From a virus, in IMG/VR virus record IMGVR_UViG_3300003937_000077, positions 1 to 26,245 of that record: 26,245 nt of DNA; one strand, given 5' to 3'. Shown piece after piece: positions 1,595 through 5,424 of this stretch. Under the pieces are notes generated by a model. It saw only the letters and a list, made by a program, of their open reading frames with translations. It was not told where the DNA came from and made no database searches. A program made the translations under genes and the position numbers. Within the stretch, counting starts at the first letter, position 1; each line of letters starts with the position of its first letter.

Positions 1595-3016
1595 ATGATT
1601 TTAGCATTGTTATTAGGCACATTGTATGGTCTTATAATTGGATTGATACCAGCAGCAGGAGCCACCACAGGTCTTGTAGTTCTATTTGGTTTTATGTCTT
1701 ATTTCTCAGACCCGTACTTAGGAGTTGTATTCTGTATGGCTGTAGTAGCAGCCTCTACCACAGGTGATACATACTCCGGAATCTTATTAGGTATCCCAGG
1801 TGCTAACTCAGCCGCTGCCACAATGGTCGACGGTCACCCTCTAGCCAAGCAAGGCAAAGCAACCTATGCTCTTACAGCAGCAATAACAACCTCAACTGTC
1901 AATGGTCTCCTATGGGGAACACTTACATTTGCCTTACTCCCTTGGTATACAAAGCTTATGATGGTCTTTGGCGTCCCAGAGATGTGGGCTTTTGTTATGT
2001 TAGCTCTTGCCTGTGTTGGATTTGTATCTAATAAATTCTGGATTAGAAGCTTAATGGCTATATTAATTGGATTATTCTTAGGAAGTATAGGTACTAACCC
2101 AGTGACAAATGCTGATAGGTGGACATTCGGTTGGGAATATCTAGGAGCTGGTATTCAAATTATGCCAATGGTTGCTGGTCTATTTGCCTTCCCTGAAATA
2201 TTAGATGGTTGGAGAAAAGGAGATAAAACTACCATATCACATAATACCAAAGGTCAAACCTTAGATGGAATTAAAGCCGCATGGAAATATAGATGGGATT
2301 CAATAAGAGGCGGAGCAATAGGAGCCTTTATTGGTTTCCTTCCAGGACTTGGTGGTGCTATGGGAGATTGGATGGCGTATGGTTCAGCCGTTGCTGCCAA
2401 TCCTAATGAAGAATTTGGTAAAGGAAATATAAGAGGTGTTATAGGTTCAGAAGGAGCTAACAATTCTCAAAAGGCTACATCAATGATTCCCACAGTTTTA
2501 TTTGGAATCCCTGGTGCTTCTTTTGCTGCAGTATTAATGGCTTTATTTATGACATTAGGATTTGAATTAGGAACACCTGACCTTGCTTATGATACAAGAT
2601 TTTTTGATAGTCTCACATTTGGATTTATGTGGGCTACGGTTTTAGTAGGTATATTATGCATTGTGTTTAATAGATACATTTCAAAGATATCCTCATGGCC
2701 ATATAAATATTATTTCCCAATCCTTGTAGTGTTTATCACTTGGGCTTGTGCTCAATACACTGGTGGTTGGGAGGACTATGCTATATTGATATTATGCTCG
2801 GCTCTTGGAGTCTTTTGTAAAGCATATAAATATAGTAGACCGGCTTTGTTGATGGCATTCATCTTAGCCATAAAGGTAGAAACATTGACTCTACAATTAA
2901 GTGCTTTATATACTATAGATACTCTTATGACTAGGCCAATATTTATTATTTTAATTATAACAATTATAGCAATGGCAACATTATCTATAAGAAAAAACAA
3001 ACTGGAGTATGCATGA
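1595..3016 (+). CDS. TctA-family tripartite tricarboxylate transporter permease
   Basis: 473 residues, almost wholly hydrophobic with about a dozen predicted membrane spans. It has the two TctA-type repeats, visible as GLIIGLIPAAGATTG near the N-terminus and 'GAFIGFLPGLGGAMGDW' mid-protein, plus 'GIPGANSAAATMVDGHP' and 'GIPGASFAAVL'. TctA is the large inner-membrane subunit of carboxylate transporters that use a periplasmic TctC receptor and the small TctB. The N-terminus begins inside the first conserved block, so it lacks roughly 20 residues seen in bacterial proteins; no upstream start exists because the RegA stop lies three codons upstream in the same frame. No clear ribosome site precedes it. 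TctC follows (4-base overlap). A likely host-derived metabolic gene; substrate unknown. Confidence 0.9.
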   Translation: MILALLLGTLYGLIIGLIPAAGATTGLVVLFGFMSYFSDPYLGVVFCMAVVAASTTGDTYSGILLGIPGANSAAATMVDGHPLAKQGKATYALTAAITTSTVNGLLWGTLTFALLPWYTKLMMVFGVPEMWAFVMLALACVGFVSNKFWIRSLMAILIGLFLGSIGTNPVTNADRWTFGWEYLGAGIQIMPMVAGLFAFPEILDGWRKGDKTTISHNTKGQTLDGIKAAWKYRWDSIRGGAIGAFIGFLPGLGGAMGDWMAYGSAVAANPNEEFGKGNIRGVIGSEGANNSQKATSMIPTVLFGIPGASFAAVLMALFMTLGFELGTPDLAYDTRFFDSLTFGFMWATVLVGILCIVFNRYISKISSWPYKYYFPILVVFITWACAQYTGGWEDYAILILCSALGVFCKAYKYSRPALLMAFILAIKVETLTLQLSALYTIDTLMTRPIFIILIITIIAMATLSIRKNKLEYA

Positions 3017-4098
3017 AAAAATTAATCGCACTTTGCCTTATAGCATTCACAACATCAGCCTTAGCTGATTATGTCTTTGTTGTACCACAAAAACCTGGAG
3101 CTGGAACAAGCCAATGGGCTGCAATTATTGCAGAACAACTTGAGCCATTCTTAGGAGAAAAGATACACATTAAACATATACCAGGAGCAAGAGATATTCC
3201 TGGCTTTAATGAATTCCATAACTCTTTAAGAGTATCTGATAAGATTGTTATGGTTTCACATGGTGGTAATGGAGTTAGCTTCTTACAAGAGAATGTTGAC
3301 TATGACTATAATGATTATGACTCTATTGGTCTTATGAATTTAAATATTATAGCTGGTAAAGCTATTGGAGCAGATATGACGCATCCAATTTTTGCTGCTG
3401 GTTCGGGTATGGTTCCCGAAGCTTTTGCTATGGCCCTATTAATATGTGGTAATAAATCTACATCAATAGATTATTATATTGCTTGCTTTGGTGAGCATGT
3501 GACTTGGGTTAATGGAATGTCAGGTGGTGAACGTAGACTTGCATTTAAACGTGGTGAACTAAATGGTACAAGGGAAAACCCAGCTGCATATAAAAAACAT
3601 GTTGAACCAAATGACAAAGCAGAAATATGGTTCCATCATGGTATACTCCAAGCAGATGGAAGTCATGCTGATGACCCTAACTATCCTGGGTTCCAATTAG
3701 AAATTTTATTTGAAGAGCTTTGGGATGCACCACCAAGTGGAGAATTTTATGATGCTTATAAGCTTGTCAAATCATTTAGAGATGGTATGCAAAAAGCCTT
3801 ATGGGTAAATAAAGGAAATCAAAATACATTTGCTTTAAGGAATGCTTTACATCAAATGAGTTTAGACCCAGATGCAGTAGCTGCTATTGAAGCTAAAGTT
3901 GGTAAATATGAATGGAAGATTGGTGATGAAGGTAATGCACATAGAGATACCCTTATGTCATTCATTACTGAAGATGCTCTTAGGAATTTAATTCGTTTTA
4001 ATACAGAAGCATTAGGATTAGCAAGCATATTTAAAGACCATCTTGTAATAGAAGTTGAGGTACCAACACAGCTTGAAGGAACTGATTTGAGAGGATGA
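3013..4098 (+). CDS. TctC/Bug-family periplasmic solute-binding protein
   Basis: 361 residues. The N-terminus is a classic signal peptide: MKK, a hydrophobic core (LIALCLIAFTTS) and an ALA cleavage site at about residue 18, so the protein should be exported to the host periplasm. The mature part begins with the receptor pattern 'VVPQKPGAGTSQWAAIIAEQL', an 'IPGA' block and 'SHGGNGVSFL', matching the Bug/TctC fold that delivers carboxylates to TctA. It is somewhat longer than usual TctC proteins (about 320-330). It overlaps tctA (ATGA), giving order A-C, unlike the common bacterial C-B-A, and no TctB lies nearby. The pair could supplement host uptake during infection. Ligand not deducible. Confidence 0.82.
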   Translation: MKKLIALCLIAFTTSALADYVFVVPQKPGAGTSQWAAIIAEQLEPFLGEKIHIKHIPGARDIPGFNEFHNSLRVSDKIVMVSHGGNGVSFLQENVDYDYNDYDSIGLMNLNIIAGKAIGADMTHPIFAAGSGMVPEAFAMALLICGNKSTSIDYYIACFGEHVTWVNGMSGGERRLAFKRGELNGTRENPAAYKKHVEPNDKAEIWFHHGILQADGSHADDPNYPGFQLEILFEELWDAPPSGEFYDAYKLVKSFRDGMQKALWVNKGNQNTFALRNALHQMSLDPDAVAAIEAKVGKYEWKIGDEGNAHRDTLMSFITEDALRNLIRFNTEALGLASIFKDHLVIEVEVPTQLEGTDLRG

Positions 4099-4483
4099 AG
4101 AATTATATATTTGTAACAGGTGCTCCAGGAAGTATGTGGAGTGGTATCTCTCAAAAAATTAGAGAGGAGCATAATGCAGATATGACTGATTATACTCCTG
4201 ACAAAATATATAAACATCATAAATATGCTGGTCATAAAGGAAATTACTATGGACCAAAGATGCAATATGTGTAGAGTTATTTCCAGAAAGTAAAATTGTT
4301 GCAGTAGTTAGAGATAATGATGAATGTTTTAATTGGTGGCAAGAAGCAGGTGGCTGGAATATAACATACCCAAATTATGAATGGTATATAGATGATATAC
4401 AAATGATGGAAGAAATAAAAGAGCAAAATAAATTAATAAAACGGTTTACAATTACACCAAACTGTGATATAATATATGTATAA
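4095..4483 (+). pseudogene. broken P-loop (sulfotransferase-like) gene
   Basis: ATG 4095 overlaps the tctC stop and encodes 59 residues beginning MKNYIFVTGAPGSMWSG, a P-loop-like start seen in sulfotransferase-like proteins of marine phages, and ends at TAG 4274. Another frame, open from 4238 to TAA 4483, continues with typical protein sequence: 'ELFPESKIVAVVRDNDECFNWW' in part, then an aromatic/acidic 'GGWNITYPNYEWYIDD' segment. The two pieces read as N- and C-terminal parts of one gene, joined out of frame and apparently lacking a middle section. I infer a deletion plus frameshift; two small genes or programmed frameshifting are less likely. Assignment to sulfotransferases rests on memory of the family, not on a search. 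Confidence 0.65.
4445..4473 (+). promoter_or_regulatory. sigma70-like early promoter upstream of hsp20
   Basis: TTTACA at 4445-4450 and a perfect TATAAT at 4468-4473, 17 bases apart, with TGTGA directly before the -10. It lies in the 3' end of the broken P-loop gene. Predicted start is near 4480, giving a leader of about 88 bases for hsp20. Confidence 0.75.
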
Positions 4484-4486
4484 ATA
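4479..4486 (+). promoter_or_regulatory. T4-type late promoter TATAAATA upstream of hsp20
   Basis: Exact match to the T4 late promoter consensus, which is read by host RNA polymerase with phage gp55. It sits 5 bases after the sigma70-like -10 and about 80 bases before the hsp20 start, in sequence that contains no intact gene. Its start point would be near 4492-4494, inside the first leader hairpin. Confidence 0.55.
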
Positions 4487-4567
4487 GATTTGACAGATGC
4501 GAAAGGTCTGTCAATAACCGTAGCATTTTGCTACAATTTTAACCTTGCTATTTAATAGGAGGACATT
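4487..4567 (+). promoter_or_regulatory. ROSE-like RNA thermometer in the hsp20 leader
   Basis: Three hairpins in a row. Hairpin 1: TTGACAGA (4490-4497) with TCTGTCAA (4507-4514), 8 perfect pairs. Hairpin 2: GTAGCA (4520-4525) with TGCTAC (4529-4534), 6 pairs. Hairpin 3: 4544-4551 with 4555-4562 around a UUA loop; UUGCU (4545-4549) pairs with AGGAG (4557-4561), giving U-A, C-G, a G-G mismatch, U-A and U-G, and covers the ribosome site AGGAGG (4557-4562), five bases before the ATG. A UUGCU/AGGA helix with a G-G mismatch in front of a small heat-shock gene is the hallmark of ROSE elements, which melt on warming and release the ribosome site. Function is inferred. Confidence 0.7.
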
Positions 4568-5023
4568 ATGTCAAACTTAGCATTTAACTTCCCAAGAGAT
4601 ACATTCCTGGGATTTGATTCTCTCTTTAACACACTATCTGAAATGAATGTCGAACGCGCTAGAGGCGTTGGATATCCACCATATAATGTTATTAAAAGAG
4701 ATGATGGTCATTTTTTAATTGAAATCGCTGTTGCGGGATTTAAAAAAGAAGACATTGACCTAACACTTGAGAAAAGTGTTTTAACTATCACTGGTAAACA
4801 TAAAGGTGGTAGCGATGTACGAGATTATACCCATAGGGGTATTTCTCAAAGAGCGTTTGAGCGTTCATTCACATTAAGCGAGACCATTAAGGTCGTTGGA
4901 GCTGACATTGTTGATGGATTGCTTGTAGTTATTTTGGAGAACGATATTCCAGAAGAGGACAAGCCTCAAACAATTAATTTAGGTGACCTACCTAAGCACG
5001 CTAAAAAGCTATTGCTTGGGTAA
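4568..5023 (+). CDS. hsp20: Hsp20 small heat-shock protein
   Basis: 151 residues with an alpha-crystallin domain at about 35-130: PPYNVIKRDDGHFLIEIAVAG at its start, 'VLTITGKH', the 'FERSFTL' strand and 'GLLVVILEND' near the end. Such proteins bind unfolding proteins in the cytoplasm without ATP; homologues are widespread in marine T4-like phages, where a role in capsid or host protein stability has been suggested. The C-terminal IXI anchor used for assembly is not obvious ('TINLGDLP' is the nearest). It has strong expression signals: early and late promoters and a perfect AGGAGG site held in a leader hairpin. It heads a unit with iscU and the gene at 5428. Confidence 0.93.
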   Translation: MSNLAFNFPRDTFLGFDSLFNTLSEMNVERARGVGYPPYNVIKRDDGHFLIEIAVAGFKKEDIDLTLEKSVLTITGKHKGGSDVRDYTHRGISQRAFERSFTLSETIKVVGADIVDGLLVVILENDIPEEDKPQTINLGDLPKHAKKLLLG

Positions 5024-5043: not shown

Positions 5044-5424
5044 ATGGCATATTCAGACGCAGTATTAGACCACTATAATCATCCACGCAATGTGGGTAAA
5101 ATGGATTTGAGTGATAAGAATGTTGGGACTGGTATGGTAGGTGCTCCATCTTGCGGTGACGTTATGAAGCTGCAAATTAAAGTAGAGAAAGATATTATAC
5201 AGGATGCAGTATTTAAATGTTATGGCTGTGGTTCTGCAATAGCTTCCTCTTCTATTATTACTGAAATGCTTAAGGGTATGACACTCGACCAAGCAGAAGA
5301 AATAAAAAATACAGAGGTGGTTAGCCAGCTTGACCTACCCCCAGTTAAAATACACTGCTCCGTTTTAGCTGAAGATTCAATTAGAGCAGCAATCAAAGAT
5401 TATAAATCAAAACAACACAGGTAA
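5044..5424 (+). CDS. iscU: IscU-type iron-sulfur cluster scaffold
   Basis: 126 residues, the full length of bacterial IscU. The cluster ligands are present: C37 in GAPSCGDVM with D39, C62 in 'YGCGSAIASSS', H104 and C105 in 'KIHCSVLAED'. The LPPVK motif (98-102), which HscA chaperones recognise in IscU, is intact. The phage protein should therefore accept sulfur from host IscS and hand clusters on using host HscA/HscB. C59 replaces the residue usually found two places before YGCG. A ribosome site (AAGGAG) lies ahead of ATG 5044, 20 bases after hsp20. Its placement with a chaperone suggests a protein or cofactor maintenance unit. Confidence 0.92.
   Translation: MAYSDAVLDHYNHPRNVGKMDLSDKNVGTGMVGAPSCGDVMKLQIKVEKDIIQDAVFKCYGCGSAIASSSIITEMLKGMTLDQAEEIKNTEVVSQLDLPPVKIHCSVLAEDSIRAAIKDYKSKQHR

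Follow-up and report, generated by a model that had tools for sequence, protein, structure and literature searches.

The motif U(U/C)GCU defines ROSE-like elements (PMC3669281). The short ROSE-like element of Pseudomonas ibpA (ROSE_3, RF02523) is composed of two hairpins, the first of which is stable and has a Y[G]CC...GGG apex, and its U(U/C)GCU motif, with a bulged G, faces the Shine-Dalgarno sequence of a gene for an IbpA-class small heat-shock protein (PMC3669281). ROSE of rhizobia (RF00435) and ROSE_2 of enterobacterial ibpA (RF01832) have the same U(U/C)GCU core in leaders of three to four hairpins, and a CGCC...GGG apex is likewise found in the first hairpin of Salmonella ibpA. In E. 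coli, Cedecea and Vibrio, IbpA acts as a repressor of its own ROSE-containing leader; it binds this leader via R93, and R93 and an aromatic residue at position 34 are essential (PMC10474464). In phages, the known RNA thermometers are the lambda cIII leader and the fourU element of SP-beta blyA (PMC10586365, PMC8917201). The former uses alternative folds and the latter four U residues; neither is a ROSE element.

Here we describe the leader of an hsp20 gene in viral DNA of 26,245 nucleotides (positions 1 to 26,245 of IMG/VR record IMGVR_UViG_3300003937_000077; hereafter the window), in which a sequence-only reading had proposed a ROSE-like RNA thermometer. Like the Pseudomonas element, this leader has a stable first hairpin with a bulged-G apex and a U(U/C)GCU motif opposite the Shine-Dalgarno sequence of an IbpA-class gene. 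It differs in that it lies in a phage genome behind a late-type promoter rather than a sigma32 promoter, contains an optional additional hairpin, has a weaker, A+T-rich last hairpin and matches no Rfam ROSE model. With the lambda cIII and blyA leaders it shares phage-encoded control of translation by temperature, which is predicted in the case of the window; the genes differ.

Results

The hsp20 gene (4568..5023, plus strand) encodes an IbpA-class small heat-shock protein of 151 amino acids (Pfam HSP20, 7e-16). By alignment, it is 42% identical to Salmonella IbpA, and its R95 and Y36 match R93 and Y34 of E. coli IbpA. In the protein tree, every phage Hsp20 groups with the IbpA class, apart from other Hsp20 classes. 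Some neighbouring genes were also noted. Directly downstream of hsp20, at 5044-5424, is a gene for a NifU-type iron-sulphur scaffold (PF01592, 2e-48). Upstream, 1595-4098 contains a gene for a TctA tricarboxylate transporter (PF01970, 3e-94) and, after it, an unnamed gene of 361 amino acids. TctA is an unusual metabolic gene for a phage, and its relatives in annotated phage records all have less than 30% identity. The ORF at 4095-4274 looks frameshifted by mutation or sequencing error, since it apparently runs on in another frame to 4484.

The leader (4479-4570, plus strand) begins with TATAAATA (4479..4486, plus strand), which we take to be a T4-late-type promoter from established knowledge of T4 late promoters; the transcript would start at or just before the first hairpin. 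A putative sigma70-like promoter, TTTACA-N17-TATAAT (4445..4473, plus strand), can be read 5' of it. The late-type promoter is present in 80/81 window-clade loci with sufficient upstream DNA, and a comparable sigma70-like promoter in 16/81 loci of the clade. Three consecutive hairpins follow on the plus strand, as the sequence-only reading had claimed. Hairpin 1 (H1, 4490..4514) has 8 bp and a GAAA loop; beyond the 8 bp, a U4498.G4506 pair, bulged G4499 and a C4500-G4505 pair give an apex of the form Y[G]C...GG. Hairpin 2 (H2, 4520..4534), with 6 bp and a UUU loop, is clade-specific and optional. A role of H2 as a terminator was set aside because it has only 6 bp and a short U run and is missing from 33/80 relatives. 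Hairpin 3 (H3, 4543..4562), CCUU[G4547]CUAU-UUA-AUAGGAGG, is assigned to the ROSE type on the basis of its fold, conservation and covariation, and occludes the Shine-Dalgarno sequence AGGAGG (4557..4562, plus strand), which ends 5 bases 5' of the ATG at 4568.

The region 4490-4570 folds at -21.7 kcal/mol, compared with -11.6 +/- 3.0 kcal/mol for shuffled sequences (z = -3.4), and none of 200 shuffles equalled it. In H3, UUGCU (4545..4549, plus strand) aligns with the U(U/C)GCU motif and opposes the AGGAG of the Shine-Dalgarno sequence, as had been proposed. The proposed central G-G mismatch, however, was not what the favoured fold contains: in the minimum-energy fold of isolated H3, G4547 is bulged and CCUUGCU pairs with AGGAGG, through C4543-G4562, C4544-G4561, U4545-A4560, U4546.G4559, C4548-G4558 and U4549-A4557, followed by A4550-U4556 and U4551-A4555. 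This bulged-G register is the classical ROSE register; in known ROSE elements, deleting the bulged G locks the structure. The same bulged-G step, Y[G]C/GG, is common to H1 (4498-4506) and H3 (4546-4559). A fourU thermometer was rejected, as the anti-Shine-Dalgarno sequence is CCUUGCU and not four consecutive U residues. Thus, the window leader contains U(U/C)GCU imperfectly paired in the last hairpin with a bulged G opposite the Shine-Dalgarno sequence, an IbpA-class gene behind it and stable hairpins upstream, and the proposal of a ROSE-type leader is borne out in these respects.

Scanning with the Rfam covariance models had been suggested as a check. ROSE, ROSE_2 and ROSE_3 gave no match in the window in either gathering or permissive scans, and these models miss most of the phage and SAR11 leaders as well. 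As positive controls, ROSE_2 scored 95 bits on Salmonella ibpA and ROSE_3 scored 69 bits on a record labelled as a Pseudomonas phage. RF00435 gave no match in three SAR11 genomes, in a search whose control itself appeared only below the cut-off. ROSE_3 matched the leader of a relative, Methylophilales phage Melnitz, with 34.1 bits (E 7e-4), which is below the gathering score of 43 and yet the best result of all 4227 families in the Melnitz leader search. Its consensus first hairpin has the same Y[G]CC...GGG apex as the phage H1. Since ROSE_3 matches the Melnitz leader and the H1 apex is shared, both sequence and structure connect the phage leaders with the short ROSE of Pseudomonas, the window itself only through its relatives.

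A resemblance was also found in SAR11 (Pelagibacteraceae). The H1 apex and UUGCU...AGGAG precede hsp20 in 33/33 SAR11 loci inspected, and the letters around the core (AACCUUGCUA...AGGAGG) are nearly identical to those of the window, which also shares H3. These hsp20 genes are chromosomal, with oligopeptidase-B-like and glutathione-synthetase-like neighbours, and a sigma32-like promoter, CTTGAAA...CCATAT, precedes their leaders where the window has the phage T4-late-type promoter. A covariance model, R1, was built from 16 consistently aligned SAR11 leaders only, an earlier alignment (A2) having misplaced the UUGCU of one subgroup. In 449 kb of mostly phage DNA, R1 found the best phage leader at E 5e-7 and relatives without H2 at values down to 1e-5. 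The window was matched at 4518-4570 (22.6 bits, E 0.011 in the 449 kb), and the alignment ran through H2 and H3 because R1 has one upstream hairpin. On 15 whole phage records, the best match lay at hsp20 in 12, and all matches below E 0.04 lay at hsp20. A class-wide scan with stricter filters gave matches in just 7/240 genomes; therefore R1 is narrow. In other alphaproteobacteria, the motif is mostly present before IbpA-class hsp20 genes and absent from non-IbpA Hsp20 genes. The phage leaders are homologous with the SAR11 hsp20 leaders. Derivation from an alphaproteobacterial host, which the sequence-only reading had considered, is supported for the pelagiphage Mosig clade, whose Hsp20 nests with SAR11 in the protein tree (100/99). 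For the window Hsp20 the origin did not follow: its clade is sister to C48C1 (97/86), and its deeper placement is not settled by the tree.

Relatives of the window were gathered through the protein, because annotated phages had given no match when searched at the DNA level with leader and gene together. Close relatives comprised 80 IMG/VR loci, giving 35-36 distinct leaders with the window. Neither the late-type promoter nor the arms of H3 (AACCTTGCTAT on the left, ATAGGAGG on the right) vary among 35 aligned window-clade leaders, whereas the loop between the arms differs in length and letters. H1 shows changes on both sides of its stem. H2, where present, has two-sided changes such as GTAGC/GCTAC to GTGGC/GCCAC. 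The DNA 5' of the promoter differs between groups of the clade; thus promoter, leader and gene have been kept together as a unit. Among distant relatives, whose Hsp20 identity is 36-46% (C48C1, Mosig, AG-345-P14, HTVC103P and S-CAM1), each leader has U(U/C)GCU opposite AGGA.

UYGCU-N2..12-AGGA was found 5' of hsp20 in 400/401 phage loci (197/198 distinct 60-nt leaders), the loci being a sample of relatives found by similarity to five Hsp20 queries and not a random draw. In the same DNA, it occurs at 5/1464 other ORF starts, and at 5/308 of those with an AGGA Shine-Dalgarno sequence. When 200 distinct phage and SAR11 leaders were anchored on the middle G and C of the motif alone, the first base was U in 200/200 and the last U in 199/200, and the second was U in 134, C in 66 and never a purine. 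This is the exact ROSE consensus U(U/C)GCU (PMC3669281). Further phage records, with Prochlorococcus, Synechococcus, Methylophilales and Pseudomonas as hosts, have the motif in 12 of 14 cases, and the other two are variants. In S-CREM2, UUGCC...GGGA (just upstream of 295 in its locus) replaces a core U-A by C-G, a natural compensatory change. The Pseudomonas jumbo phage PA5oct has UUGCG...AGGAG before hsp20 (just upstream of 250 in its locus) and the same H1 apex. Altogether, the element precedes hsp20 in five deep phage clades, which include the cultured cyanophages S-ShM2, Syn19, P-HM1 and S-RSM4, pelagiphages and a methylophage. The Hsp20 of S-ShM2 has already been studied in vitro (PMC5028025). 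Judged from these leaders, a short ROSE-type element is widespread in marine T4-like phages, including cyanophages.

Covarying changes in homologous leaders, the second check suggested, were found; all structure comparisons concern natural variants. For H3, 85 distinct cases were anchored on the motif without use of the structure, and shuffles served as control. Outer pair 1 was paired in 100% (C-G, U-G, A-U) against 87% in shuffles, outer pair 2 in 68% (A-U, C-G, U-A) against 38%, and the first inner pair in 86% (U-A, A-U) against 64%. These flanking pairs vary compensatorily across clades. At outer pair 2, the window clade has C-G, the S-CAM1 clade mostly U-A and the C48C1 clade A-U; within this last clade, the inner pair switches between A-U and U-A. 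H1 was located by a requirement of three pairs. Pairs 4 and 5, which this requirement does not select, formed in 98% and 83% of cases and in 57% and 43% of shuffles. The H1 apex is seen again in five phage clades and in SAR11. Relatedness, which shuffles leave in, inflates these counts, so that they are support rather than proof.

Discussion

Anatomy, conservation, covariation and homology with the SAR11 leaders were each observed for this leader. Taken together, these sequence comparisons make it likely that a phage promoter here drives a short ROSE-type RNA thermometer. In the mechanism that we propose, the late-type promoter, together with the host-type promoter just upstream, would drive an mRNA starting with the stable H1 and then H2. 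H1, here with H2, probably assists folding and stability. In the weak H3, UUGCU would pair with the Shine-Dalgarno sequence, with G4547 bulged. In cool cells the ribosome site would be mostly closed, and H3 would open when the infected cell warms or suffers heat stress, so that Hsp20 is made.

We infer that H3 melts within the host temperature range and that translation responds. At 25 °C, isolated H3 has a predicted energy of -6.3 kcal/mol, compared with -8.3 for Salmonella ibpA and -10.8 for Pseudomonas. By these nearest-neighbour energies, H3 is weaker by about 2 and 4.5 kcal/mol, respectively, and therefore a cooler set point may be expected. In ViennaRNA predictions for the whole leader, accessibility of the Shine-Dalgarno sequence is 0.30 at 5 °C and 0.35 at 42 °C, a small rise that does not discriminate, since established ROSE controls hardly respond in this calculation either. 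Ocean temperature seldom jumps during one infection cycle, which counts against a thermometer.

Autogenous repression by the phage Hsp20 is a serious rival or partner of the thermometer. The leader would then be mainly an operator: free Hsp20 would bind it and keep translation down until drawn off by unfolded proteins. The leader would thereby respond to chaperone demand in the infected cell and not directly to temperature, and a thermometer could coexist with it. The window Hsp20 has both R95 and Y36, the Arg is kept in S-CAM1, Mosig, HTVC103P and SAR11, and the late-type promoter detaches hsp20 from heat-shock sigma control. However, E. coli IbpA additionally requires the basic residue K98, in place of which the window Hsp20 has Ser, and C48C1 has Lys at position 93 although the window and C48C1 leaders are equally conserved. 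On balance, it is unlikely that repression by Hsp20 is the main function of the leader.

It is much less probable that the hairpins merely shield the mRNA at its 5' end, or are passengers inherited with the gene, and do not regulate translation. H1 does lie where the transcript is predicted to begin, and hairpins in that position are known to stabilise transcripts, as discussed for the Pseudomonas ROSE (PMC3669281). A passenger would drift, whereas the H3 arms are invariant around a variable loop, and H3 covaries across clades with different promoters. That H3 serves as the operator of a translational repressor encoded by the phage, such as RegA, is scarcely credible: hsp20 lies shortly 3' of regA in many cyanophages and C48C1, but regA is absent among the neighbours listed for hsp20 in Mosig and HTVC103P, and SAR11 chromosomes have the same leader away from phage genes.

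Returning to the thermometer, its RNA design is the same as that of known ROSE elements; what is new is the genomic setting and the promoter. The sequence-only reading knew of no phage ROSE element, and none was found in the literature that we searched, the coverage of which is incomplete. Neither ROSE nor hsp20 is mentioned in the main texts of structured-RNA surveys that include SAR11 or marine metagenomes. As far as this literature shows, the element would be the first ROSE reported in a phage.

In conclusion, marine phages seem to have retained a temperature switch from bacteria under a different promoter, because the same hairpin stands before hsp20 in nearly all related phages examined and in SAR11. 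We tentatively suggest, as a possibility of somewhat less than even chance, that ROSE forms a standing viral regulatory family, in which marine T4-like phages infecting bacteria of different phyla, cyanobacteria included, would keep a proteobacterial switch on hsp20 under phage promoters, and this switch would report temperature or chaperone demand within the infected cell independently of the sigma32 response of the host. Since cultured phages carry the element, this can be tested now. The leader is an example of viruses retaining a host RNA switch with its promoter replaced, and it may offer a testable route by which water temperature sets the chaperone output of phages.
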